From positions 3,162,001-3,226,000 of the forward strand of contig NZ_JBDOQT010000001.1 in assembly GCF_039839785.1 (NCBI RefSeq): DNA of 64,000 nt, given 5' to 3'. The notes under the pieces are model-generated. The model did not search any database and was not told where the DNA came from. It saw only the letters and a program-made list of their open reading frames with translations. Positions 16,342 through 28,320 of this stretch are shown piece by piece (position 1 is the first letter of the stretch; each line of letters starts with the position of its first letter). Origin of the DNA: Pelagibius sp. CAU 1746 (GTDB lineage Bacteria > Pseudomonadota > Alphaproteobacteria > Kiloniellales > Kiloniellaceae). Position numbers and translations under genes: made by a program.

Positions 16342-17526
16342 CTAGCTACAACCCGCTTCGGGCGCGATGCGGCCCAAGTCCTCGACGGTCACCAGCCCAC
16401 TGCCCTCGGTCTTGGCGAGGAACATCGGCAGGGTCACGTGATGGTCGGCGCTGCCGATGCTGACCGGCCCGGCCGGCGTCGAGACGGTCAGGCCTTCCAG
16501 ACCGTCAACCACCGCCTCGGGGCCCACTTCGCCCTTGCGCACCAAGGCGTCGCGCAATGCGTTCACGGCGTTGTAGTGGGTCATGACATAGTGGGAGATC
16601 GGCACCTCGCCGCCGGCCTGGGCGCGGATGCGCGCAACGAAGTCCGTCACCCCAGGCTGCGTGCCGGAGGCGACGAAGGGCACGGTCACCCACATGTTCT
16701 GGCCGCCGCCGGGCCCGAAAGCGCCGAGGTAGGTTTCCGCAAAGCCCAGGAAGGCCACCGTCACCTTTTCGAAGAGACCGAAAGCTTCGGCCTGCTTGAT
16801 GAAGGTGATGCCGTCGCCGCCCGGCAGCGCGAAGAGCAGCACTTTGGCGCCGCTGTCGGCGATGCGGCGGATGACCGGTGCGAACTCCTTCACGCCCCAG
16901 GGCGTGAACTCCTCGCCGGCGATGGTGCCGCCGAGCCCGCCGATGATGGTCTTCGCGGTCTCGAACTGCCGCTGCGGCCAAACGTAGTCGGCCCCGAAGC
17001 AGTAGGTGCTGCCCCCGAAGTTCTCGTGCATGTAGGGCAGCAACTGGCCCAGTTCCTGGTTCGGCACGGTGTTGAAAGAGAAGATATAGCGGCTGCAGGC
17101 GCCGCCCTCGTAGTTGGTGGCGTAGAGCAGCGGCACCTTCGAGCGTTCCACCGTCGCCGCCATGGCGTCGCGCGAAGACGAAAGGATCGGGCCGGTCAGC
17201 GCCACCGCGCCGTCGCGCCCGATCAAGGTGCGCGCTTTCTCCACAGACGTCTTGGGATCGGTCTTGTTGTCCTCGTAGAGAATTTCCAGGGGGCGGCCCA
17301 GGATGCCGCCGGCGTCGTTGATTTCCTTCATCGCCAGATCGAGGCCCAGCTTGGCCTGGTTGCCGAAGAGCTCCAGGCCGCCGGAGAAAGGCAGCACCGC
17401 GCCGACCCGGATGGGATCGGCCGCCAGAACCCGCGTGGCCAATCCGGGCAGCGCGCCCGCCCCGGCGGCGGCACCGGCCGCCGCCGCGCCGGAGGCCAGA
17501 AGTCGACGTCGAGAAATCTTGATCAT
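16342..17526 (-). CDS. ABC transporter substrate-binding protein, Leu/Ile/Val/urea-amide type
   Basis: 394 residues. A twin-arginine-like leader (SRRRLLASGAAAAG) is followed by a type I periplasmic binding fold: IRVGAVLPFSGGLELFG, KEINDAGGILGRPLEILYEDNKTDP, and later GADYVWPQRQ. The last, a YxWPQ-type element, recalls the UrtA/FmdD (urea and short-chain amide) branch. It is the first gene of the transporter operon, with AGGGGAT upstream of ATG. It captures the ligand in the periplasm. The adjacent amidase-type hydrolase makes nicotinamide or another carboxamide a reasonable but unproven ligand. Confidence 0.88.
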   Translation of the reverse strand: MIKISRRRLLASGAAAAGAAAGAGALPGLATRVLAADPIRVGAVLPFSGGLELFGNQAKLGLDLAMKEINDAGGILGRPLEILYEDNKTDPKTSVEKARTLIGRDGAVALTGPILSSSRDAMAATVERSKVPLLYATNYEGGACSRYIFSFNTVPNQELGQLLPYMHENFGGSTYCFGADYVWPQRQFETAKTIIGGLGGTIAGEEFTPWGVKEFAPVIRRIADSGAKVLLFALPGGDGITFIKQAEAFGLFEKVTVAFLGFAETYLGAFGPGGGQNMWVTVPFVASGTQPGVTDFVARIRAQAGGEVPISHYVMTHYNAVNALRDALVRKGEVGPEAVVDGLEGLTVSTPAGPVSIGSADHHVTLPMFLAKTEGSGLVTVEDLGRIAPEAGCS

Positions 17527-17691
17527 GACCGCATCCCCTGAATTGCCTGTATTGCGTTGTAGCGCATTGTTCCGGCGGAGAGTTTGGCCCGGTTCCTGTT
17601 GCGCTGCAACACCTTGACGGTTCGACGAAGCCGCTTTGCCCCATTTGGGGGTTTGCAGGCGGCAGTGGCTTTGCTAACTCTCCGCCGTCTT

Positions 17692-17848
17692 CCGGGCCCT
17701 TCGGGCGCCTGGAAGTTTCCGGGCCCTTCGGGCGTCTGGAAGTTTCCGGGCCCTTCGGGCGTCTGGAAGTTTCCGGGCCCTTCGGGCGTCTGGAAGTTTC
17801 CGGGCCCTTCGGGCGTCTGGAAGTTTCCGGGCCCTTCGGGCCCCGGGG
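17692..17848. repeat. 27-bp tandem repeat array with nested microhairpins
   Basis: Five full head-to-tail copies start at 17692, 17719, 17746, 17773 and 17800, and a partial sixth at 17827. The unit begins CCGGGCCCTTCGGGCG and ends TCTGGAAGTTT. Copy 1 differs by one base (GCCTGG for GTCTGG); copies 2-5 look identical. Each unit contains the mini-hairpin GCCC-TTC-GGGC. The array abuts the 5' end of tRNA-Ser. There are no unique spacers, so it is not CRISPR. Function unknown. Confidence 0.95.
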
Positions 17849-18192: not shown

Positions 18193-19371
18193 ATGGTACC
18201 GACGTTGCATTTCAGCCGCTCGGAGTTCGCGGCCCGTGTCGAGAAGACCCAACAGGCGATGGAGCGCCAGGGCATCGACGCCCTGATCGTCAGCGATCCT
18301 TCCAACATGGCTTGGTTGACCGGTTACGACGGCTGGTCGTTCTACGTACATCAGGCGGTGGTGCTGCCGGTCGACGACGCCCCCGTCTGGTTCGGACGTT
18401 CCCAGGACGCAAACGGCGCCCGCCGCACGACCTGGCTGGCGCCGGACCGCATCGAGAGCTACGCCGATCACTACGTGCAATCCACCGAGCGGCACCCCAT
18501 GCAGGCGCTTGCGGAAATCATCGCGCGCCGCGGCTGGGACAAGCGGCGCATCGGCGTGGAGATGGACAACTACTATTTCAGCGCCGCGGCCTTCGCCGCG
18601 CTGCAAAAGGGCCTGCCCAACGCGAGCTTTCTGGATGCCACCTCCCTGGTGAACTGGCAGCGCGCGATCAAGTCCCCGCAAGAACTGAGCTATATGGAAA
18701 ATGCCGCGCGCATCGTCGAGCGCATGCACGCGCGCATCTTCGAAGTGATCGAACCGGGCATGCGCAAGAACGACCTGGTGGCCGAGATCCTGCATGCCGG
18801 CGCCCGGGGCACAGAAGAGACCGGCGGCGACTATCCGGCCATCGTGCCGCTGCTGCCCTCGGGGTCTGACGCGGCGGCGCCGCACCTCACCTGGGATGAT
18901 CGTCCCCTGCAGTCCGGCGAGGGAACTTTTTTCGAGATCGCCGGCTGCTACCGGCGCTACCACTGTCCCTTGTCGCGCACGGTCTTCCTCGGCAAGCCGA
19001 CGCCGAACTTCATCGAAGCCGAAAAGGCCGTATTGGAAGGCATGGAAGCGGGCCTTGCCGAGGCCCGGCCCGGGCGTAGCTGCGAGGATATCGCCAAGTC
19101 CTTCTTCGCCGTGCTGGCGCGCTACGGCATCGAGAAGGACAACCGCACCGGCTATTCCATCGGCCTCAGCTATCCGCCGGACTGGGGCGAGCGCACCATG
19201 AGCCTGCGTGCCGGCGACACCACCGAACTGCAGCCGGGGATGACCTTCCATTTCATGACCGGACTATGGCTCGACGACTGGGGCTTCGAGACCACGGAGA
19301 GCATTGTCATCACCGAAAGCGGCGCGCGCTGCCTGGCCAAGGTGCCGCGCAAGCTTTTCGTCAAGGACTAG
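18193..19371 (+). CDS. doeA: Ectoine hydrolase (M24 peptidase family)
   Basis: 392 residues, ATG with AGGAG upstream. A creatinase/aminopeptidase-P (pita-bread) protein with an N-terminal domain (MAWLTGYDGWSFYVHQ) and a catalytic-like C-terminal domain (GTFFEIAGCYRRYHCPLSRTV, GLSYPPDWGE, TFHFMTGLW). The canonical metal-binding Asp/His/Glu set is incomplete, as in DoeA/EutD. The immediate downstream gene is DoeB-like, which strengthens the assignment. DoeA opens the ectoine ring to N-alpha-acetyl-2,4-diaminobutyrate in the cytoplasm. Without doeB alone it could be read as a generic Xaa-Pro peptidase. Confidence 0.88.
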   Translation: MVPTLHFSRSEFAARVEKTQQAMERQGIDALIVSDPSNMAWLTGYDGWSFYVHQAVVLPVDDAPVWFGRSQDANGARRTTWLAPDRIESYADHYVQSTERHPMQALAEIIARRGWDKRRIGVEMDNYYFSAAAFAALQKGLPNASFLDATSLVNWQRAIKSPQELSYMENAARIVERMHARIFEVIEPGMRKNDLVAEILHAGARGTEETGGDYPAIVPLLPSGSDAAAPHLTWDDRPLQSGEGTFFEIAGCYRRYHCPLSRTVFLGKPTPNFIEAEKAVLEGMEAGLAEARPGRSCEDIAKSFFAVLARYGIEKDNRTGYSIGLSYPPDWGERTMSLRAGDTTELQPGMTFHFMTGLWLDDWGFETTESIVITESGARCLAKVPRKLFVKD

Positions 19372-19391
19372 TCATCAACACCAGGTACGTC

Positions 19392-20387
19392 ATGGCCATC
19401 AATCCGATCTCCTGTTCCCTAGATTTCGACCAAGACGGCGTCCAACATGGGCATCTGAAGCTGCCCTATTCACGCGACGATTCCGCCTGGGGCGCCATCC
19501 TCATCCCGATCACCGTCATCAAGAACGGCGACGGTCCGACGGCGCTCTTCACCGGCGGCAACCACGGCGACGAGTACGAAGGCCCGATCGCCCTGCTGGA
19601 TATGGCCTTGAACCTGGAGCCCGCGGCGATCTCCGGCCGGGTGATCCTGCTGCCGATGATGAACCACCCGGCGGTGCGCAGCGGGCGGCGCACCTCACCC
19701 ATAGACGGCGGCAACCTCAATCGCCTGTTTCCCGGCAAAGCTGACGGAACCATCACGCAAAAGATCGCCGACTACGTCACCACGGCCCTCTTACCCCTGG
19801 CCGACGTCATCGTCGATCTGCACTCCGGCGGAAAGACGCTGGAGTTCGTCCCCTACGCGGCCAGCCACCGCCTGCCCCAGGACCCGGCGCTGGAGGCGCG
19901 CTGTACGGCGGCCATGCAGGCCTTCAACGCCCCCTACTCCATGATCATGCTGGAGCTGGATGCCGTCGGCATGCTGGATACGGAGGCCGAGGCTCGCGGC
20001 AAGATCTTCGTCACCACCGAGCTCGGCGGCGGCGGCAGCACCACCCCCCACAGCGTTGCGGTGGCCAAGCGCGGCTTGCGAAATGTCCTGCGGCACGTCG
20101 GCATTCTGCCGGGGCAGGCAGAGATGCAGCCGAGCGCACAGCTCGACATGCCCGACGAACGCTGCTTCGTCACCTCCGAACATGCGGGCATGCTGGAGTT
20201 CATGGTCGACCTCGGAGCGGCCGTCAGCGAGGGCGACGTGATCGCCAGGGTCTACGACCTGGACCGCAGCGGCTGGCGCCCGGTCGAATACACCGCCTAC
20301 CGCGACGGCGTGGTCGCCGGGCGGCACTACCCCGGCCTGGTCCAGAGCGGCGACACCCTAGCGGTCATCGCCGTCCCGGCCGACTGA
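19392..20387 (+). CDS. doeB: N-alpha-acetyl-L-2,4-diaminobutyrate deacetylase
   Basis: 331 residues from ATG 19392, with AGGTA upstream, 20 bp after doeA. Succinylglutamate desuccinylase/aspartoacylase fold with zinc ligands H58 and E61 (GGNHGDEYEG) and H144 (DLHSGG), and the NLNRLFPG substrate loop. Conserved TTELGGGGSTTP and a C-terminal beta domain complete the family length. It removes the acetyl group from the ectoine-hydrolysis product to give 2,4-diaminobutyrate. The later pathway genes doeC/doeD and the usual enuR/asnC-type regulators are not adjacent. Confidence 0.9.
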   Translation: MAINPISCSLDFDQDGVQHGHLKLPYSRDDSAWGAILIPITVIKNGDGPTALFTGGNHGDEYEGPIALLDMALNLEPAAISGRVILLPMMNHPAVRSGRRTSPIDGGNLNRLFPGKADGTITQKIADYVTTALLPLADVIVDLHSGGKTLEFVPYAASHRLPQDPALEARCTAAMQAFNAPYSMIMLELDAVGMLDTEAEARGKIFVTTELGGGGSTTPHSVAVAKRGLRNVLRHVGILPGQAEMQPSAQLDMPDERCFVTSEHAGMLEFMVDLGAAVSEGDVIARVYDLDRSGWRPVEYTAYRDGVVAGRHYPGLVQSGDTLAVIAVPAD

Positions 20388-20403
20388 GGCCCTGCCGGCG
20401 AAA

Positions 20404-20432
20404 CCGCGCGCAGGGGGCCGCGCGCGGCTCTT
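20404..20432 (+). terminator. Probable terminator between doeB and the convergent Hint operon
   Basis: Stem CCGCGCGC (20404-20411) with GCGCGCGG (20420-20427), then CTCTTT. It sits 17 bp past the doeB stop and 22 bp before the end of the convergent Hint gene. The T-tract is weak, so intrinsic termination is only probable. Confidence 0.5.
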
Positions 20433-20448
20433 TCCGCGACTTCTGTGG

Positions 20449-21495
20449 TTATCGCTGCCATCCGTTCTCGACGGCTGTGGCTTCCTGATCCGGCGGCAGA
20501 GGCTCGCCCTCGATCTCCTGTTCGGTGAAGCTGTCGTCGGCTCCACGGCCGCGGCCGCGGCCGCGGTGATCGTCGCCGTCCTCGGTTTCGACCAACTCCC
20601 CGTCTTCGCCCGCTTCGCCGTGCTCCCCATGTTCACCGTGCTCGCCGTGTTCGCCGTGTTCGCCGGCGATGTCATCGCCTCCGCGGCCCTGACCACGGCC
20701 GCGGCCACGGCCCCGGCCACGGTGATCGCCGTCGTCTTCTCCGGAGGCCGATTCACCGCCCTCGCCGTGATCGTCGTCGCCGCGCTCACCGCCCCCGCGA
20801 TCGTCGCCACCGCGCTCGCCCCCGCCGCGGTCGTCGCCACCGCGATCGCCTCCGCCGCCTGACTCGCCGCCCTTGTTGTGAACAACGAACCCGTTGGCGA
20901 TGTAGGTGTGATCGCCGTCAAGGAGGAGGTTGTAGACACGAAGCTGCGGGTCCGCTTCGATGCTGTGTATGCGCTCCAACGGCAGCAGGACCGTATCGAG
21001 TTCGCAGGCCAGGGCGAGGTTGCCGGAAACGGCATTGCAAGCCGGCACCGCCACGGCGACCAGGTCGCCACAGCCGAGCCGTCCCACCTTCAGCGCGGGG
21101 TTCTCTTCCGCCGTTGCCGCGGGCGCGATTGATTTCCAGCCGGCCGGCGTAAGGAACGGGTGTTCCTCGGTCACGAAAGCTTCTCCGCCGTTGAAGCCGT
21201 AGAGCTTGCGCCCGGCCAGATGCGGGCGCTCCACGGCTACGACGCGGTTCGCCCTCCCCGAGCTGCTGATCACGTGATCTCCGGGCTTGATATCGCAGAT
21301 GCGCTTTTCACTGCCGCCGGCCATGAGCACGAGGGTTGTCGCCGTAAAACAGCTCTTGGCTTCGGCGGTCTGCAGGGCAACCTCGGCTCCCTGCCAGTCG
21401 ATTGTGAGGGACAGTGGCGTCGCGGCCAGGGCGAGGCCCAGAATACTGGTGCTGGCCAGAAGCCGAATATGCGTGGTGCTTTTTCCGGCAGACAT
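20449..21495 (-). CDS. Secreted Hint (intein/hedgehog-like) domain protein with Asp/Gly/Arg-rich tail (Hint-1)
   Basis: 348 residues from ATG 21495, chosen for its GGGAGA ribosome site. A signal peptide (LLASTSILGLALAA) precedes a complete Hint domain: Cys49 (SCFTATTLVLM), the block-B TEEH motif (109-112, followed by PFLT), block-F NLLLDGDHTYIANG and terminal VVHN (H206-N207). The residue after Asn is Lys, not Cys/Ser/Thr, so protein splicing is unlikely, but self-cleavage is possible. The remaining 140 residues are low-complexity (GGDDRGGGE-, GEHGEHGEH- and RGRGRG-type runs), ending in PDQEATAVENGWQR. It is the last gene of the operon with the oxygenase. Paralogue of the gene at 22663. Confidence 0.85.
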   Translation of the reverse strand: MSAGKSTTHIRLLASTSILGLALAATPLSLTIDWQGAEVALQTAEAKSCFTATTLVLMAGGSEKRICDIKPGDHVISSSGRANRVVAVERPHLAGRKLYGFNGGEAFVTEEHPFLTPAGWKSIAPAATAEENPALKVGRLGCGDLVAVAVPACNAVSGNLALACELDTVLLPLERIHSIEADPQLRVYNLLLDGDHTYIANGFVVHNKGGESGGGGDRGGDDRGGGERGGDDRGGGERGDDDHGEGGESASGEDDGDHRGRGRGRGRGQGRGGDDIAGEHGEHGEHGEHGEHGEAGEDGELVETEDGDDHRGRGRGRGADDSFTEQEIEGEPLPPDQEATAVENGWQR

Positions 21496-21595
21496 TTGCG
21501 ATCTCCCATTCGTGAAAAGGCTGATGTCTCGACAACACTTCACGGCGGGCAAACGATCCCGCAACGGGAACTCGATCGCTGAAATTTTTCCGGGC

Positions 21596-22267
21596 TTAAG
21601 GATCCGACCACATGCGGAGCAGGTTGGCGTAGACCTTGAAGGCGATATCCGTTTCCTCGGAATCCGGGTCGGCCTTCATGAGGCGGCGGCGGACCCTATC
21701 GACATCGTAGAGCATCTCGCGCCGCGAAGGGTCGGCGACGTAGCTCTGCACCCAGGTGACCGCTGCGAGACGCTCGCCCGCAGTCACAGGTTTCACCCGA
21801 TGCAAAGTGCTTGAGGGATAGACCACGGCCGAGCCCGCCGGCAGCTTCACCTCCTGCGGTCCGTAGGGGCTGGCCATCTCCAGTTCTCCGCCGTCGTAGT
21901 CCTCCGGACTGCTGAGAAAAACGGTGACGGAGAGATCGCTCCGCAGCCGGTCGCGGTTACCCATCAAGGCGTCGTCGACGTGCAGGCCATAATCCATGCC
22001 CGGGCGGTACCGGCTGAACAGCGGACGATGGACGGTTTTCGGCAGGGCGGCCCGCTGAAACTCCGCACTGCCCATCAAGGCATCGAGCACCATTCTGTCG
22101 ATGACCTTGCGGCTGCTGTCCTTGGGGCTCAGTTGCTCGTTATGCTTGACCCGCTTGGCGCGAAAGCCGGCGGTTTTCTGGCCATCGACGAACTCGCCTT
22201 CTTTCATGGCCTGCCTGATTTTCTTCAGGGCAGGCCAGTCCAGCACCCCATCGATCGTCGCAAGCAT
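21596..22267 (-). CDS. Fe(II)/2-oxoglutarate-dependent dioxygenase, PiuC/PKHD type
   Basis: 223 residues, full PiuC/YbiX length. Double-stranded beta-helix with iron ligands H96 and D98 (YGLHVDDALM) and H156 (STLHRVKP), plus the 2OG-binding Arg166 (GERLAAVTW). The C-terminal LYDVDRVRR helix is typical of the family. PKHD hydroxylases are annotated as prolyl-4-hydroxylase-like or iron-uptake-associated; physiological substrates are mostly unknown. It has no signal peptide, so it is cytoplasmic. It begins 9 bp after the small lipoprotein gene. Its position between two Hint genes raises the possibility that it hydroxylates the low-complexity tails; this is speculation. Confidence 0.92.
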   Translation of the reverse strand: MLATIDGVLDWPALKKIRQAMKEGEFVDGQKTAGFRAKRVKHNEQLSPKDSSRKVIDRMVLDALMGSAEFQRAALPKTVHRPLFSRYRPGMDYGLHVDDALMGNRDRLRSDLSVTVFLSSPEDYDGGELEMASPYGPQEVKLPAGSAVVYPSSTLHRVKPVTAGERLAAVTWVQSYVADPSRREMLYDVDRVRRRLMKADPDSEETDIAFKVYANLLRMWSDP

Positions 22268-22276
22268 GGGCCCAAC

Positions 22277-22663
22277 CTATGATCTTATCGGCTTCCACAA
22301 GCCATCACCGTCCCTGCAGGCCGTGCGCTGCCGGTGAGCCCGCCCGTTCGCGCCCGCATTGACCACTTCGACGTACTCCCGGCAATAGAAGCCGGCCGAG
22401 CTGCGATAGGTGCGCAAGGGCGTTATTTCGCCATAGCTGCCGTCTTCGATATAGTTCCAAGATAGTGTCGTCTTGCTGCGCGCGGACTCCAGAGCTTCCT
22501 GGACCGTATTGCGTGCCAGCACTTCCGCGCGTGGCGCGAGAGCGTCGTAGACCGGGTCTCCCCGGTCCGACGACGGCGACTGCGCGCAGGCACCCAGCAG
22601 CAGGAAGGTGACGGCGCCGGCCGTGGACTGCAGTGCCAGGCTGGCTTTGCCGCGCACCGCCAT
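22277..22663 (-). CDS. Small lipoprotein with a C-terminal two-Cys domain shared with the nearby anti-sigma factor
   Basis: I favour ATG 22663, which overlaps the Hint-2 stop as TGATG; an in-frame ATG at 22672 also exists. The protein has a lipobox (LLGAC) and a C-terminal domain with PLRTYRSSAGFYCREY and TACRDGDGLWKP. This resembles the RT0821/Lpp0805-type surface-antigen tail found in 17-kDa-like lipoproteins. The same pattern ends the anti-sigma factor at 24395. The two conserved Cys could form a disulfide. Location is an envelope membrane. Function is unknown; the context suggests sensing or signalling for the sigma factor. Confidence 0.75.
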   Translation of the reverse strand: MAVRGKASLALQSTAGAVTFLLLGACAQSPSSDRGDPVYDALAPRAEVLARNTVQEALESARSKTTLSWNYIEDGSYGEITPLRTYRSSAGFYCREYVEVVNAGANGRAHRQRTACRDGDGLWKPIRS

Positions 22664-23610
22664 CACTGCCATCCCCGCTCGATCAGGTCCGCCTCTTCAT
22701 CCGGCGAGAGGTCATCGCTCGCCTCCCCAGGATCTCCCGGGAAAAAGTCGTCGCCGCCACGCTCTCCACTTTCACCGCTTTCGTCTTCGTCTTCGTCATC
22801 ATCATCATCGTCGTCGTCGCCGGATTCACCGCCTTCGCCGCTCTCGCCCGACTCGCCGCCGTCGTCGCCGCTCTCGCCGCCTTCTCCGCCATCGTCATCG
22901 CCGCCGTCGTCGCCGCCGTCGTCGCCGCCTTCCCCGCCATCGTCGCCACCGTCGTCGCCGCCGTCGTCACCACCGTCGTCATCCCCTTTGTTGTGAACGA
23001 CAAAGCCATCGGCGATGTAACTATGGTCGCCGTCGAGCAGCAAGTTATAGACCGTGGTCTCGGGGGCGGCGGCACAGGCGGTCACGCTGTTGAGCGGCTG
23101 CAGCCAGAACTCGATCTCGCTATCCCGCGCCAAGTTGTCGGCGGCGCCCTGCGGAACCGCCTGCCGCGCCATGGTCAGCAGGTCGCCGGCCAGCAGCGCC
23201 GTCACTTTTAGCGCGGCGTTCTCGCGGGCCGTCGCGGTCGGATCGATAGCCTTCCAGCCCGCCATGGTCAGGAAGGGGTGTTCCGCCGTGACGAAAGCCC
23301 GCCCGCCATTGAAGGCGTACAGCCTCCGGGCGCCCAAACGCGGCGTCTCGACGGCCACCACGCGGTTGATGCCCCCGCGCCCGCCGCGCACTAGGTCGCC
23401 GGGACGCAGCGATTCGATGGGCCGCTGGCTGCCGTCGGCCATCAGCACCTTGGTGCCGGCCAGAAAACAGGAACTCCCGGATTCCGCGTAACTCAGGCCG
23501 GCGCCGCCAATATCGGGGTCCAAGACGACCGGCGCGGCCGTCAGCGTCAGGGCGACGATACTGGTGGTCGCCATCAGACGGGTCAAAATGACCTTATTCC
23601 GGCGTTTCAT
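22663..23610 (-). CDS. Secreted Hint domain protein with Asp/Gly/Glu-rich acidic tail (Hint-2)
   Basis: 315 residues from ATG 23610, with AGAGGGA upstream. A signal peptide (MATTSIVALTLTAAP) leads to Hint Cys48 (SCFLAGTKVLM), TAEH (108-111) and VVHN (H206-N207), the same residue numbers as Hint-1, again followed by Lys-Gly. The last 108 residues are extremely acidic (DDGGDDGG repeats and a run of eight Asp), ending PDEEADLIERGWQ. Glu/Asp-Gly runs suggest Ca2+ binding or a disordered extracellular chain. It is the promoter-proximal gene of a four-gene minus-strand operon and lies 237 bp from the divergent sigma gene. Autoprocessing is inferred from motifs only. Confidence 0.85.
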   Translation of the reverse strand: MKRRNKVILTRLMATTSIVALTLTAAPVVLDPDIGGAGLSYAESGSSCFLAGTKVLMADGSQRPIESLRPGDLVRGGRGGINRVVAVETPRLGARRLYAFNGGRAFVTAEHPFLTMAGWKAIDPTATARENAALKVTALLAGDLLTMARQAVPQGAADNLARDSEIEFWLQPLNSVTACAAAPETTVYNLLLDGDHSYIADGFVVHNKGDDDGGDDGGDDGGDDGGEGGDDGGDDGGDDDGGEGGESGDDGGESGESGEGGESGDDDDDDDDEDEDESGESGERGGDDFFPGDPGEASDDLSPDEEADLIERGWQ

Positions 23611-23846
23611 GGCAACGAATCCCTCTGCCAGGGGTGAAGCGGGGCGCCCGCGGAGAGCCCCGGAATACATCAATAACCCGCAAGTCTGCCATTTCATCCC
23701 GATTCCGTCGATAATCTGGAAAAAAGTTGCTTCACATCGGAAAATTGTCCACTCCGGAGGGATGAAACTGCGCCCCCGGGTGTTGTTGGAACGTTGGAGA
23801 GCGGCATCGCGGGCCGGGCGCGCATTGCTGGCGGAGGGAACAACGC
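23611..23846. promoter_or_regulatory. Divergent promoter region between the Hint operon and the ECF sigma gene
   Basis: A 236-bp interval with a lower-GC core (about 23705-23755: ATAATCTGGAAAAAAG and GGAAAATTGTCC). It must hold the promoters of both the minus-strand Hint-2 operon and the plus-strand sigma/anti-sigma pair. I could not identify a convincing ECF -35/-10 pair by eye. The position is firm; the elements are not. Confidence 0.5.
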
Positions 23847-24398
23847 TTGGACGAGGGCATCAGGAAGGAAATGATCGCCGTCTTGCCACAACTGCGACGT
23901 TTCGCCTACGGACTGACCGGATCGATTCCCGACGGGGACGACCTGGTTCAGGCCACCTGCGAGCGGGCGATCGCCAACCTCGATAAGTGGGAAATCGGCA
24001 CCCGGCTGGACAGTTGGATGTACCGGATCGCGCAGAACCTTCACCGCAACGCTCTGCGCGACACCGCCGCGCGGGCCCGCAAGTTGCAAACCCTGGGCGA
24101 CGAGCTGGCGCTCAGCAGCGACGGCCGCCGCGATCAGGAGAATCGCGCCGCCCTGGAGGCCGTGCGCCGCTTCGTCGAGCGTCTGCCCGACGATCAGCGG
24201 ACGATCATGTTGCTGGTCTGTGTCGAAGGGCGTTCCTACAAGGATGTCGCCGCCATTACCGGCCTGCCGATCGGCACGGTAACCAGCCGTCTGGGGCGTG
24301 CGAGAGCGGCATTGCGCGAGCATCTGTCCGACGAACCCCCCGCCGCCGCAGCGCGGCAGGATCACACGGAATCTCAATTGGAAGAGGGCGCGAAATGA
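23847..24398 (+). CDS. ECF-type RNA polymerase sigma factor
   Basis: 183 residues from TTG 23847, preferred because GGAGGGA lies 8 bp upstream; ATG 23871 is an alternative. Sigma region 2 is visible as LRRFAYGLTG, DDLVQATCERAI and RLDSWMYRIAQNLHRNALRD. Region 4 is LPDDQRTIMLLVCVEGRSYKDVAAI followed by IGTVTSRLGRARAALREHL. There is no sigma-3 domain, so it is a group 4 (ECF) sigma. It directs polymerase to a stress or envelope regulon. It is divergent from the Hint operon and its stop overlaps the anti-sigma ATG (ATGA), so the pair is co-translated. Confidence 0.93.
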   Translation: MDEGIRKEMIAVLPQLRRFAYGLTGSIPDGDDLVQATCERAIANLDKWEIGTRLDSWMYRIAQNLHRNALRDTAARARKLQTLGDELALSSDGRRDQENRAALEAVRRFVERLPDDQRTIMLLVCVEGRSYKDVAAITGLPIGTVTSRLGRARAALREHLSDEPPAAAARQDHTESQLEEGAK

Positions 24399-25039
24399 GC
24401 AAGCGTCTCGATCCCGAAACCATCGACGCTTATGTCGACGGCCAACTGGCGCCCGAGGCCATGGCCGACGTCGCGGGCCGCCTGAAGCAGGACCCCGATG
24501 CTCTGGCCCGGGTCCGCGCCCTGCATGACGATCGCGCCCTGCTCCGCGCCGCCTATCAGGAGGCCGCCGAGGCCCCGCCGCCCGTGGCGCTGCTCGGGGC
24601 CATCGACCGCGGCTTTTCCGAGCGGGCGCGGCGGCAACGCAGGACTGTCCCTTCCATACGCTTCGCCCTCGCCGCCGCCATAGCCTTGGCCGTGGTCGGC
24701 TCCTTGACCGGCTACCTGGCCGGAGAATACCGGCTGCGCAGCGAGCTGGAAGCGGTCGCCGCCCGCCAGGCGGAGGACCAGCGCGTTCTGGCCGCCGCCA
24801 TTTCGCAGGCCCTGGAGCACTCGGCCTCCGGTCAGCCGGTGGCCTGGGAAAACCCCGACAGCGGCGCCCATGGCCAGGTCGTGCCGGTGCGCACCTACCG
24901 CAGCAAATCGAACCACTGGTGCCGGGAGTACCTGGCGTCCAAGGTGGCCAACGATGTCGAGCAGAAGTCCCGCGCCATCGCCTGCCGTTCCGGCGACGGT
25001 GCCTGGGTGAAGGTCGAAGACCTGTATTACGAGAGCTAG
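24395..25039 (+). CDS. Membrane anti-sigma factor with extracytoplasmic RT0821-like domain
   Basis: 214 residues. The N-terminal anti-sigma-like part (DPETIDAYVDGQLAPEAMAD, no clear HxxxCxxC zinc motif) is followed by one membrane helix (about residues 90-110). A coiled-coil-like stretch and a C-terminal domain with VVPVRTYRSKSNHWCREY (C176) and AIACRSGDGAW (C197) complete it. The last domain matches the pattern of the lipoprotein at 22277 (P.RTYRS, CREY, AC R.GDG.W). The ATG overlaps the sigma stop. It would hold the sigma factor at the membrane and release it on a periplasmic signal. Confidence 0.85.
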   Translation: MSKRLDPETIDAYVDGQLAPEAMADVAGRLKQDPDALARVRALHDDRALLRAAYQEAAEAPPPVALLGAIDRGFSERARRQRRTVPSIRFALAAAIALAVVGSLTGYLAGEYRLRSELEAVAARQAEDQRVLAAAISQALEHSASGQPVAWENPDSGAHGQVVPVRTYRSKSNHWCREYLASKVANDVEQKSRAIACRSGDGAWVKVEDLYYES

Positions 25040-25054
25040 GCGCCCTGGCCTGCT

Positions 25055-26314
25055 CTAGGCGTCCCCCTTCAAGGACCGTTTCACCACGGCCCTGAAGGTC
25101 AGTCCCTGGACGATGATCGAGAAGATCACCACGGCATAGGTGATGGCGAGGATCGGCGCCTTCTCCGGGCCTTCCGGCAAGGACAGCGCCAGGGCGACGG
25201 AGATGCCGCCGCGCAGGCCGCCCCAGACCAGCACCGGAATGGCGCCCTTGGTGAAGCTCTGGCGCAGCGACAGCAGGGTGAGCGGGATCGACACGCCGAA
25301 AAAGCGCCCCAGCAGGACGATGGGGATGGCCAGCAGCGCCGCCTCGGCGGAGATCAGGTCGACGCGCACCACCAGAACCTCCAGGCCGATCAACAGGAAC
25401 AGCAGGGAATTCAGGATCTCGTCCAGCAGCTCCCAGAAGTTCAGCAGGTGCTCCCGGGTCTTCTCGCTCATGGCGTAGGCGACGCCGTGGTTGCCGATGA
25501 AAATCCCCGCCACCACGACCGCCAGCGGCCCGCTGACGTGAATCAAGTGGGCCAGGGCATAGGTCACCGTCACCAGGGCCAGCGTGATCATGATCTCCAG
25601 ATTGTGCTCGTCCAGGCTGCCCAGGGCGCGGTAGGCGATGTAGCCGGCGACGGCGCCCAGCACGGCCCCGCCCCCGGCTTCCTGAGCGAAGAGCCGCGCC
25701 ACCTCCAGGGGGCCGACCTCGGCGTGCGGCCCACCGGCGGCGATGGCCACCACGATGAGAAAGACCACCACGCCGACGCCGTCGTTGAAGAGCGATTCGC
25801 CGGCGATCTTGGCCTCCACCGAAGCCGGGACCTTGATGGTCTTGAGGACGCCCAGCACCGCCACCGGATCGGTGGGGCTGATGAGCGCACCGAAAGCCAG
25901 GGCCCAGATGAAGGGGATTTCCAGACCCAACAGGCCGAAGACCAGCCACGCCAAGGTACCCACGACGAAGGTGGAGATCAGCACGCCCAGGGTCGCCATG
26001 GCCGTGATGGCCGCCAGACGGCTGCGCAGCGCCGTGAGATCGACGTGCAGGGCGCCGGCGAAGAGCAGGAAGCTCAACATCCCCTTCAGCAGGGTATCGT
26101 CGAAATCGACCTGGCGCAGCGCGGCGGTGACCGGACCGTCGACATCCGTCGCCGGGAAGACCAGCTCGAAAGCCACCAAGGTGAGAGCGGCGCCCAGGGC
26201 GATGACCATGAGGCCGATGGAGTGCGGCAGGCCCAGGACCTTGTGGTTGATGTAGCCGAAAAGCGCGACCAGCCCGAAAAGGACGGCGATGAGATCGAAG
26301 ATCGACAGCTCCAT
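25055..26314 (-). CDS. Na+/H+ antiporter, CPA1 family
   Basis: 419 residues with about 12 hydrophobic segments. Key CPA1 motifs are ALAFGALISPTDPVAVLGVLK (helix TM5 region) and GESLFNDGVGVVVF (ND pair of TM6), the ion-binding core of NhaP/NHE proteins. GGLRGGISVALALSLP is the conserved arginine motif of helix 10/11. It exchanges cytoplasmic Na+ or K+ for H+ at the inner membrane. It is convergent with the anti-sigma gene (15-bp gap) and 88 bp after the radical SAM gene. A role in salt or pH balance fits the ectoine and marine-type context. Confidence 0.92.
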   Translation of the reverse strand: MELSIFDLIAVLFGLVALFGYINHKVLGLPHSIGLMVIALGAALTLVAFELVFPATDVDGPVTAALRQVDFDDTLLKGMLSFLLFAGALHVDLTALRSRLAAITAMATLGVLISTFVVGTLAWLVFGLLGLEIPFIWALAFGALISPTDPVAVLGVLKTIKVPASVEAKIAGESLFNDGVGVVVFLIVVAIAAGGPHAEVGPLEVARLFAQEAGGGAVLGAVAGYIAYRALGSLDEHNLEIMITLALVTVTYALAHLIHVSGPLAVVVAGIFIGNHGVAYAMSEKTREHLLNFWELLDEILNSLLFLLIGLEVLVVRVDLISAEAALLAIPIVLLGRFFGVSIPLTLLSLRQSFTKGAIPVLVWGGLRGGISVALALSLPEGPEKAPILAITYAVVIFSIIVQGLTFRAVVKRSLKGDA

Positions 26315-26402
26315 GGCGCCCTCTTTCAGCTTCTGCCCAGAGGGTTCTTATCCGCTTTGCCGCGGCGCGGCAACGAATTGGGAAAGGGCCGGGGTTTGAG
26401 AG

Positions 26403-28199
26403 TCACTCCGCCGCGTCGGCGGCCTGCTTGGCGTGCTTCTCGCGCGCCTCGGTCTCCTTGTGCGCCTTGGCGACGGCGGCCTGGGCCGCTTCGGTATGGG
26501 CGAACATCTCCAGTTCCTCGTCCTCGCCATGGTCGGTCACCGGTGTCAGGGCAAGGTCGCTGTAGCTCTGGGTCGCCGGGTCGCGCTTGATCTGCTGGCA
26601 CTTGAGCCAGAGCCGCAGGGCGAACCAGGCGAAGGGGCCGTAGGTCGTGACCATCTCCCACAGGCGGCGCGGATAGAAGACCAAGGGCGATTCCAGCGGC
26701 AGCCCGGAGCGGCGCTGGGTGCGGACCTTGCGGCGGAAGTAACCGCCCTGCAGCGGGTGGACCTTCTCGTAGCGGATGCAGCCGGCGAACTGCAGGGCGT
26801 GGGCCCAGATGCGCTCCGGCTTGTTGCCGCTGACGACCATGCGCCGCATCAGCGTTTCCAGGTGCTCCTCGGAGTAATAAAGCTCCCAGGCCTTGTTGTA
26901 GATGCCCTGCCACTCCTCCTTCGACATCAGCGAATGCCCGGTGCAGACGTGCTCCAGGTCGTAGATGTTCATGTCGGGGTCCATGGGGACGCCCTTGATG
27001 TAGAGGTTCTTGTGATCCTCCGAGCCCGGCAGCGGCGTCAGGCAGAAGAACTCCAGGATATCGATGGGCAGCTCGCGTTTGATGACCTCGATGTCGTGGA
27101 CGATCTTCTCCGGCGTATCCGCCGGAAAGCCCAGGATGTAGCCCGCGTAGGTCAGGATCTGCTGCTCGCGCCAAGCCTGCAGCATGGCCCGGTACTCGGT
27201 GATGCGGTTCTGCCGCTTCTTGGCCGCCATCAGGTTGTCGGGGTTGATGTTCTCCAGCCCGATGAAGACCCGTGCCACCCCGGCCCGCTTGGCCTTGGGA
27301 ATGAAGTTCTCGATCTTGTGGCACAGGGTGTCGACCTGGATGATGATGGAGAACGGCAGGCCGGTCTCCTCGCGCAGGTCGCCCAGCCGGTCGAAGATCG
27401 CTTCCCAGTTCTTGTTGCGGGCGAAGTTGTCGTCGGTGATGAAGAAGCGGCAGATGCCCTGCTCGATGTTGGCACGCACCAGGCGCTCCACGTCGTCGGC
27501 CTCGCGGAAGCGCGACTTGCGGCCCTGGACGTTGATGATGGTGCAGAAGGAGCACTGGAAGGGGCAGCCGCGCCCGGCGTCGAAGCAGGCCACCGAGCCG
27601 CCGTAGCGCCGCACCATGGCCTCCGGCAGATAGGGCGTCGGCTGGCCGTCCATGCCCGGCAGGTCGCTCATGTAGTTGTAGATCGGTTTCAGCTCGCCCT
27701 TCAGGGCATCGAGATAGAACTCGTGCAGCCGCCCCTCGCCCTCGCCGGCATAAAGCGTGATGCCCAGGTCGAGCGCTTCCTGCAGGTCCGGCGGCAGCTC
27801 CGGCAGCATGGCGATGCAGCCGCTGGCATGAAAGCCGCCGATGGCGACCTGAAGCCCCTCGGCGCGGAACCGGCGGGCGATGTCGAGGGCGCGGGGGAAC
27901 TGGTTCGACTGCACCCCGACCAGGCAGACCACGCCGGTGGTGTCCGGCGCCTTGAGGCGCTCGGTGATTTCCGGAATCGGGATGATGGTATTGGTTTCGT
28001 CGTAGCCGTTGAGGACCACTTCGACATCGTCGCCCAGCAGCTTGCGGTCGATCACGTCCAGGGTGATGCCATAGAGGCTGGACAGCGTATTGGACGGCAC
28101 CCAGGCCTTGGCCCACTGAATGACATAGCCGTCGTCGTCATAGTGCGACGGCTTAATTAGTTCGATAACAAATCGTTTTTTGCGGCCATCGGTAGTCAT
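26403..28199 (-). CDS. B12-binding domain radical SAM protein
   Basis: 598 residues from ATG 28199, with GGGGAC 7 nt upstream (TTG 28211 is a weaker alternative). The N-terminal half resembles a cobalamin-binding Rossmann domain (VCLVGVQSNQFPRALDIARRF). The radical SAM core has CPFQCSFCTI (CxxxCxxC) for the 4Fe-4S cluster and later SAM-domain strands such as FFITDDNFARNK, VARVFIGLENI and GYILGFPADTPEKI. A C-terminal accessory domain follows. Members of this group methylate or rearrange lipids, antibiotics or hopanoids. The substrate is not evident and no pathway genes are adjacent. Confidence 0.85.
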   Translation of the reverse strand: MTTDGRKKRFVIELIKPSHYDDDGYVIQWAKAWVPSNTLSSLYGITLDVIDRKLLGDDVEVVLNGYDETNTIIPIPEITERLKAPDTTGVVCLVGVQSNQFPRALDIARRFRAEGLQVAIGGFHASGCIAMLPELPPDLQEALDLGITLYAGEGEGRLHEFYLDALKGELKPIYNYMSDLPGMDGQPTPYLPEAMVRRYGGSVACFDAGRGCPFQCSFCTIINVQGRKSRFREADDVERLVRANIEQGICRFFITDDNFARNKNWEAIFDRLGDLREETGLPFSIIIQVDTLCHKIENFIPKAKRAGVARVFIGLENINPDNLMAAKKRQNRITEYRAMLQAWREQQILTYAGYILGFPADTPEKIVHDIEVIKRELPIDILEFFCLTPLPGSEDHKNLYIKGVPMDPDMNIYDLEHVCTGHSLMSKEEWQGIYNKAWELYYSEEHLETLMRRMVVSGNKPERIWAHALQFAGCIRYEKVHPLQGGYFRRKVRTQRRSGLPLESPLVFYPRRLWEMVTTYGPFAWFALRLWLKCQQIKRDPATQSYSDLALTPVTDHGEDEELEMFAHTEAAQAAVAKAHKETEAREKHAKQAADAAE

Positions 28200-28320
28200 A
28201 ATCGTCCCCAACTGCGGCCATAATTATTGAAACTACCGCATTTTGCATGGCAAACCTAGGGTGAAGCGGCGGATCACTTCGCACAGCCTGCCGCCGGACG
28301 ATCAATTCACGTAAATGACT

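Follow-up and report, generated by a model that had tools for sequence, protein, structure and literature searches.

The window analysed here, a 64,000-nucleotide stretch of the genome of Pelagibius sp. CAU 1746 (contig NZ_JBDOQT010000001.1, positions 3,162,001 to 3,226,000), carries between positions 20449 and 25039 a divergent six-gene module. Four minus-strand genes, encoding two proteins with a Hint domain, a lipoprotein and a PKHD-type 2-oxoglutarate and Fe(II)-dependent (2OG-Fe(II)) oxygenase, lie head to head with the genes of an extracytoplasmic function (ECF) sigma factor and its membrane anti-sigma factor. The unifying element of the module is an exported-looking Gly/Asp/Glu-rich low-complexity chain, here called the tail, and not the Hint domain. 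On balance we consider it probable that these genes form a self-contained ECF sigma/anti-sigma system which produces acidic glycine-rich chains for export and monitors them. The gene combination looks new, and versions of it with and without Hint recur in other bacteria; loci from other genomes are cited below by number (L014 and so on). The initial annotation, made from the sequence alone, had described all six genes, their order and their junctions, and these were recovered as described. It had left out a 17-kDa domain shared by the two operons, a GW motif at the C-terminus, and those versions of the module that lack Hint or are fused to a subtilase.

Tail proteins as the common element of the module

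The first gene of the minus-strand operon (22663..23610) encodes the proximal Hint-tail protein of 315 amino acids, in which an export leader is followed by an intein-like Hint domain (residues 48-207; 22990..23469) and a low-complexity Gly/Asp/Glu tail (residues 208-315; 22663..22989), most of which is predicted to be disordered from its low predicted local distance difference test (pLDDT) values. The tail terminates in the GW motif LSPDEEADLIERGWQ (22663..22710), where a helix is predicted for residues 303-311; the block 301-310 has a mean pLDDT of 90, with few aligned rows reaching the region. The usual C-terminal end of a tail is the short motif LSPDEEAxxIxxGW. The distal Hint-tail protein (20449..21495, minus strand; Hint domain 20875..21351) likewise has an export leader, with GEHGEHGEH repeats in its tail and the C-terminal end PLPPDQEATAVENGWQR. 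The leader of the tail proteins is conserved and ends in A-x-A. The tails have no Pfam or NCBIfam label: Hint was the only domain matched in the two window proteins, and the Hint-less tails that were scanned gave no domain match. The proposal that these are secreted, self-processing, repeat-rich proteins accords with sequences that look exported, are repeat-rich and retain an apparently intact intein-like active site.

Tails also occur without Hint. Beside their Hint protein, loci L016, L026, L027, L028 and L031 encode a second protein in which the same type of leader is fused directly to a Gly/Asp/Glu chain. A search anchored on the anti-sigma factor, for which 20 loci were hand-picked among the matches listed, mainly by their cover of most of the query, and from which known full-length Hint loci were excluded, revealed that all 18 full-length loci with an ECF gene have a candidate tail protein encoded next to that gene. 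Sixteen of the calls were based on composition and two (L234, L235) on the GW end, the open reading frame (ORF) adjoining the sigma gene having been chosen there by that end and the composition rule matching other ORFs. None of the 18 contained a Hint match. Loci L250 and L251 were rejected as module loci (partial anti-sigma matches, no ECF match, and in L250 a tail call that looks spurious), which changes the count from 19/20 to 18/18. The composition rule was matched in 0/20 control windows and in 8/40 phylum-wide PKHD windows, in the latter on other ORFs; the GW end was found in none of these 60 comparison windows (20 control and 40 PKHD). A strict GW-end ORF is present in 12 of the 20 anti-sigma-anchored loci, this ORF being the anti-sigma factor itself in L238. 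The initial annotation had treated the Hint proteins as the core of the system, a position contradicted by the 18 anti-sigma-anchored modules without Hint and by a congener whose orthologous gene lacks the domain (see below).

In three of the tails (L233 8470-9024, L234 5183-5509 and L241 7479-7919) a twin-arginine-like leader (RRxALARLGL) replaces the usual one, and sites of the sigma-type motif described below lie at or near those of L233 and L234.

The two-Hint, six-gene set is found in identical order in P. marinus (L014) and P. litoralis (L015). Reduced forms were found in other families and among Gammaproteobacteria. The spread is patchy: of eight genomes searched within the genus, three have a tail-type Hint gene. 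Scanning named genomes yielded 54 Hint loci. Outside Aeromonas, the tail-type Hint loci number 18 (the window, L014-L016, L026-L032, L034-L038, L040 and L071); every one adjoins one or more module partners, and several of their contigs end inside the module. The partners comprise an ECF sigma factor (16/18), a full-length anti-sigma factor (14/18), a separate 17-kDa protein (16/18) and a PKHD oxygenase (10/18), matches in the window, L014, L015 and L016 being by construction since the family profiles were built from these four. The six-gene co-localisation exceeds chance, and the conservation first claimed for it holds, with the PKHD gene taking part in only 10 loci. Hint proteins that stop at most 10 residues after HN had no module partner in 19/19 loci, within flanks of up to 8 kb of which some are cut by contig ends; L037 was excluded from this class as truncated, and its loci are not all independent. 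The loci in which HN is followed by a long region of another kind (L043, L051, L059, L060, L061, L063, L064, L068 and L076) had no partner either and belong to neither class, and L070, L075 and L077 are unclassed, not being parsable. Among the seven Aeromonas loci with an intact contig, four (L042, L045, L052, L069) combine a GW-like end (GF or SF) with a 17-kDa gene and three (L039, L041, L048) have neither, a pattern of loss that a single deletion could explain. The 17-kDa frame of L052 contains a stop, the Hint frame of L069 is split, and no ECF match was found near the Aeromonas genes.

GW motif, 17-kDa domain and predicted sigma control

An ECF sigma factor recurs around the tail together with an anti-sigma factor that has a periplasmic 17-kDa antigen domain (PF16998). 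Another 17-kDa protein is often present as well, and some loci also have a PKHD oxygenase of the PiuC type. The window sigma factor (23847..24398, plus strand; its listed TTG start is uncertain) matches Sigma70 regions 2 and 4 in Pfam, and the membrane anti-sigma gene (24395..25039, plus strand) is coupled to it by an ATGA overlap. The sensor-like PF16998 domain of the anti-sigma factor (residues 124-204; 24764..25006) scores 53.1 bits, and the same domain is found at 31.0 bits (Pfam cut-off 26.6) in the lipoprotein (22277..22664, minus strand), which has a lipobox-like LLLGAC. The lipoprotein start overlaps the stop of the proximal Hint gene as TGATG, with an alternative ATG at 22672.

In 12 loci, here called subtilase-type, a repeat protein with a Pfam S8 domain lies beside the sigma/anti-sigma pair. 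Where the repeat chain is fused to the subtilase, the GW-like motif is located on the anti-sigma factor instead of the tail. Counted from the last conserved Cys motif, the anti-sigma factor continues for 63-70 residues in 11 of the 12 subtilase-type loci versus 16-32 residues in 26/26 of the tail type. A regular expression recovered the motif in 3/5 and 5/7 of the subtilase-type anti-sigma factors, with L237 and L271 positive by eye. Locus L240 stands outside the 12, the contig start cutting the locus and the partner not being identified as a subtilase. This exchange of the motif between tail and anti-sigma factor suggests that the 17-kDa domain of the latter senses the GW motif.

Small, exported-looking proteins with acidic DDDIDDEIEDD repeats (L268 6251-6808, L273 917-1387) are encoded near subtilase-type modules, beside a response-regulator-like ORF.

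The region between the divergent operons contains a GGGA[A/T]-N17-[T/G]GTT site on each strand, giving predicted ECF promoters for the sigma operon (GGGATG..TGTT; 23759..23784, plus strand, from 23759) and the Hint operon (GGGATG..GGTT; 23675..23700, minus strand, from 23700). Fifteen such intergenic regions hold 16 sites, against a mean of 0.29 and a maximum of 3 in 1000 Markov shuffles, an optimistic figure since the motif was read from the same loci in which it was counted. All other spacers from 10 to 25 combined gave 7 sites, five of them at spacer 20, an excess attributed to a second GTT within the same sites. In several relatives, as here, sites face both ways. Of 40 ECF loci, 15 have a strict site before the sigma gene on its own strand and 8 have one on the opposite strand, against 0.0035 per region predicted from control windows; relaxed matches (L014, L034, L238, L239, L240, L242, L246, L269, L274) are not counted among the 15. 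The 18 loci unused in motif discovery include seven with an own-strand strict site (L232, L233, L234, L243, L244, L245, L249), the first three of which are from one genus. A stricter form of the motif has five matches in the Pelagibius sp. CAU 1746 genome, two of them at this locus; the remaining three fall within long ORFs (two) and at the end of an ORF on the opposite strand (one). What stands of the earlier claim that the sigma factor induces the Hint operon is a sigma-type promoter motif before both that operon and the sigma gene, the induction being a prediction from it.

Hint domain, PKHD oxygenase and flanking genes

Pfam matches to the Hint domains are weak, Vint scoring just above its cut-off and other Hint models below theirs. 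TIGR01443 is above cut-off in both window proteins, and the HINT fold is also supported by structure comparison, the nearest structure being Tetrahymena BIL2. The proximal domain has a Cys1, a TxEHPF block and a terminal HN followed by Lys. Residues C48, T108, H111, H206 and N207 are kept in 36/36 aligned Hint sequences, an invariance due in part to the way the sequences were chosen, the TxEHPF block and GWK having served as search patterns and the Cys and HN having been used to cut the aligned pieces. The active site looks intact and intein-like. The Cys, Ser or Thr of splicing inteins was not found at position +1; Lys occupies it in 36/36 aligned sequences and in 62/62 ORFs with xxHN, a count outside which fall 8 Hint ORFs lacking xxHN.

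An intein-less allele at the exact site is provided by L249, whose orthologue L026, in the same genus, has the domain. The two genes share common upstream DNA and a near-identical C-terminus (GPDLS.DEEAAAISKGWE), and the junctions read AQA|KGGEGG in L249 and AQA, Hint, HN|KGG in L026. Cleavage by Hint would therefore yield a Lys-first tail, just like a signal peptidase cut in L249, and splicing would yield the same chain order as in L249. Hint-less tails elsewhere have residues other than Lys after AxA. Another tail gene of L249 also lacks Hint and has an almost identical leader, so that the domain may have been lost by gene conversion.

Hint proteins that end exactly in ..HNK, with Lys as the last residue, occur in several bacterial groups (L021, L044, L050, L065, L067, L072, L073, L074); the Hint domains of L021 and L065 are identical. 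From their ends these proteins could possibly be a Lys-dependent conjugation family.

The oxygenase gene (21596..22267, minus strand) follows the lipoprotein gene after 9 bp and precedes the distal Hint gene by 100 bp. Its product matches PF13640 and PKHD_C in Pfam and the PiuC/YbiX equivalog in NCBIfam (274.6 bits, cut-off 143). Aligned to the PiuC structure 9ghl over query residues 12-222, it has HVD and LHRV opposite HID and LHKV, so that the HxD..H metal-binding residues are present. In a 72-row PKHD tree, which does not include the enzymes of L244-L246, 14 module rows, that of the window among them, fall into one 19-row group (support 83/93, not starred) with 5 non-module rows. At L090 a PKHD gene of the module group has no tail, 17-kDa or Hint match in its 1.5-kb flanks.

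The presence of the oxygenase tracks the type of repeat. The median Gly-Glu density of the tails is 0.116 in 15 PKHD-positive loci versus 0.009 in the 15 PKHD-negative loci scored (18 given), L040 having been excluded for its broken tail frame, L234, L235 and L238 offering no scorable segment and a different ORF having been scored in L038. Among the subtilase type, for which data are few, the density is 0.13 in L246, with two PKHD genes, versus 0-0.03 in L236, L237 and L239, with none. In a further family, f8, the PKHD gene lies beside genes for exported-looking proteins bearing (GGE)n at each end (L108 339-1565, L110 2270-3214); these proteins have no Pfam match, their 1.5-kb flanks gave no Hint, ECF or 17-kDa match, and no such runs were found in the 40 phylum-wide PKHD and 20 control windows. 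The co-occurrence in modules and the f8 pairing point to Gly-Glu repeats as the putative substrate of this PKHD branch. The original suggestion that the oxygenase modifies the repeat proteins or a related target accords with this association. The piuC gene usually adjoins that of a TonB-dependent iron receptor; none was found among the ten proteins scanned in the window (18193-28211).

The module is flanked by genes for an M24 peptidase and an AstE/AspA-type protein (18193-20387), which we take to be possibly DoeA/DoeB of ectoine breakdown, and for a Na+/H+ exchanger (25055-26314). Judged by eye, ORFs resembling these also border the module in L014 and do not in L015. A 27-bp tandem array at 17690-17841 (5.6 copies, 99% matches) lies between the ORFs 16342-17526 and 18193-19371.

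Proposed mechanism, alternatives and known systems

We propose that the sigma factor would transcribe both its own operon and, divergently, that of the tails from the promoter motif observed before each, and that the tail proteins would exit the cytoplasm on their conserved A-x-A leader. In this genus Hint lies exactly between leader and tail; since the Cys1, TxEH and HN residues are present, autocatalytic cutting at HN|Lys is likely and would free a tail with Lys first. To judge by co-occurrence, the PKHD oxygenase would hydroxylate the Gly-Glu repeats, presumably before export. The GW helix at the tail end would be the ligand of the 17-kDa domains. The tail would be held or anchored by that of the lipoprotein, and the anti-sigma domain, if the motif swap is a guide, would read the same helix and report the tail supply to the sigma factor, the motif either releasing or locking the anti-sigma factor. 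The polymer might serve in metal or calcium binding or as a surface coat, among other candidate functions; we speculate that acidic Gly repeats with possibly hydroxylated Glu would suit cation binding. Unlikely as a whole, in our estimate, is the full version, a novel secretion-and-sensing system in which PKHD-hydroxylated Gly-Glu chains are exported and matured by a Lys-dependent Hint reaction with isopeptide joining, and the GW helix is read by the anti-sigma factor so that the cell meters its own polymer.

Several observations weigh against the proposal. No GW motif was seen in the subtilase-type locus L246, which also lacks the anti-sigma extension; the motif of L272 is without Trp, and a GW-like stretch lies inside the subtilase protein of L237. 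An anti-sigma query that itself bore the motif was the source of seven of the 12 subtilase-type loci. Outside the module the 17-kDa domain is common, the anti-sigma query matching 169 of 385 genomes of the class, with domain-only cover in most rows among the matches listed. One of the 16 promoter sites, that of L027, is not before a sigma gene and is probably due to chance, and the stricter form of the motif, read backwards, has three matches in the own genome. The Mann-Whitney p for Gly-Glu density prints as 0.0000, with no correction for either kinship or the number of features tried (23). Lastly, the Hint domain may cleave, splice or do neither.

A doubtful alternative to release of the tail is lysine splicing as in Tetrahymena BIL2, by which the upstream segment would be joined to the side chain of Lys+1, giving an isopeptide bond between leader and tail, or between tail and another amine. 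The invariant Lys is what this reading builds on; in the BIL2 crystal construct a probe fragment stopped short of a Lys at +1, leaving the parallel there unproven, and a signal peptidase cut at AxA would leave just 2 to about 5 residues before Cys1. The toxin reading takes the same domain order from pretoxin Hint proteins, in which a signal is followed by Hint and a released C-terminus, and would make the tails polymorphic-toxin-like effectors freed by Hint cleavage. It is strongly disfavoured, since neither the two window proteins nor the Hint-less tails scanned in Pfam and NCBIfam have a domain other than Hint, none of the six genes is immunity-like, and Hint-less versions exist.

The regulatory side also admits other readings. 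The initial annotation proposed an envelope-stress or surface-protein system, the envelope-stress part of which found no support here; an ordinary envelope-stress regulon, with a damage-responsive sigma factor, tails as a protective or metal-binding exopolymer, structural 17-kDa proteins and GW as a generic export or degradation tag, has to our minds a limited chance of being correct. Envelope stress is a common role of ECF/anti-sigma pairs, acidic Gly repeats are akin to metal- or Ca-binding chains, and the Na+/H+ exchanger gene adjoins the module; the shared 17-kDa domain, and the presence of the motif on the anti-sigma factor in subtilase-type loci only, would be left unexplained. It is improbable, although the 12 loci with an S8 repeat protein beside the pair and the long anti-sigma extension of 11 of them speak for it, that the subtilase-fused form came first, signalling being set off when the protease with the repeats cuts the anti-sigma factor near its C-terminal motif, and that the tail type is derived, with the motif acting in trans; L246 is without that extension. 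Our preferred reading, a system which makes and monitors its own exported chains, would if true assign a sensed ligand and a role to the widespread periplasmic 17-kDa antigen domain, for which we found no account of a role. One branch of the PKHD oxygenases would gain a candidate protein substrate, Lys-type intein chemistry would have a natural setting in bacteria, and the exported low-complexity chains, unlabelled by Pfam and NCBIfam in the members scanned, would make up a family.

No description of this gene combination was found among the open-access papers that the searches listed, subscription papers lying outside their scope. BIL2 of the Tetrahymena BUBL1 locus (PDB 6y75, 6tmm) is similar by fold only: the window Hint domains follow an export leader, sit between it and a low-complexity tail and have Lys directly after HN, and the isopeptide chemistry reported for BIL2 could be assigned to them only by analogy. 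PMC2362128 treats bacterial intein-like (BIL) domains and a bacterial group with Hint at the C-terminus; these too are Hint domains of bacterial proteins, some with signal peptides. In the module described here a tail with a GW motif follows Hint, in an ECF setting. The window oxygenase shares its family with PiuC/YbiX (PDB 9ghl) and differs in its separate, module-rich group and in its Gly-Glu repeat partner.

The PKHD oxygenase represents the sole enzyme family in the operon, and Pfam gave no MNIO match among the six proteins. Bufferins are exported and under ECF control. Their MNIO operons (PMC12452194) appear to work in a like manner, pairing an iron-dependent enzyme with a ribosomally made peptide; here a PKHD oxygenase and Gly-acid repeats are found and no MNIO enzyme. 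With other ECF sigma factors controlled by membrane anti-sigma factors the module shares the sigma-2/4 domains, the overlapping anti-sigma gene and a bipartite promoter motif, and it differs from the usual pair in that the periplasmic part of the anti-sigma factor is PF16998, a domain shared with the divergent operon.

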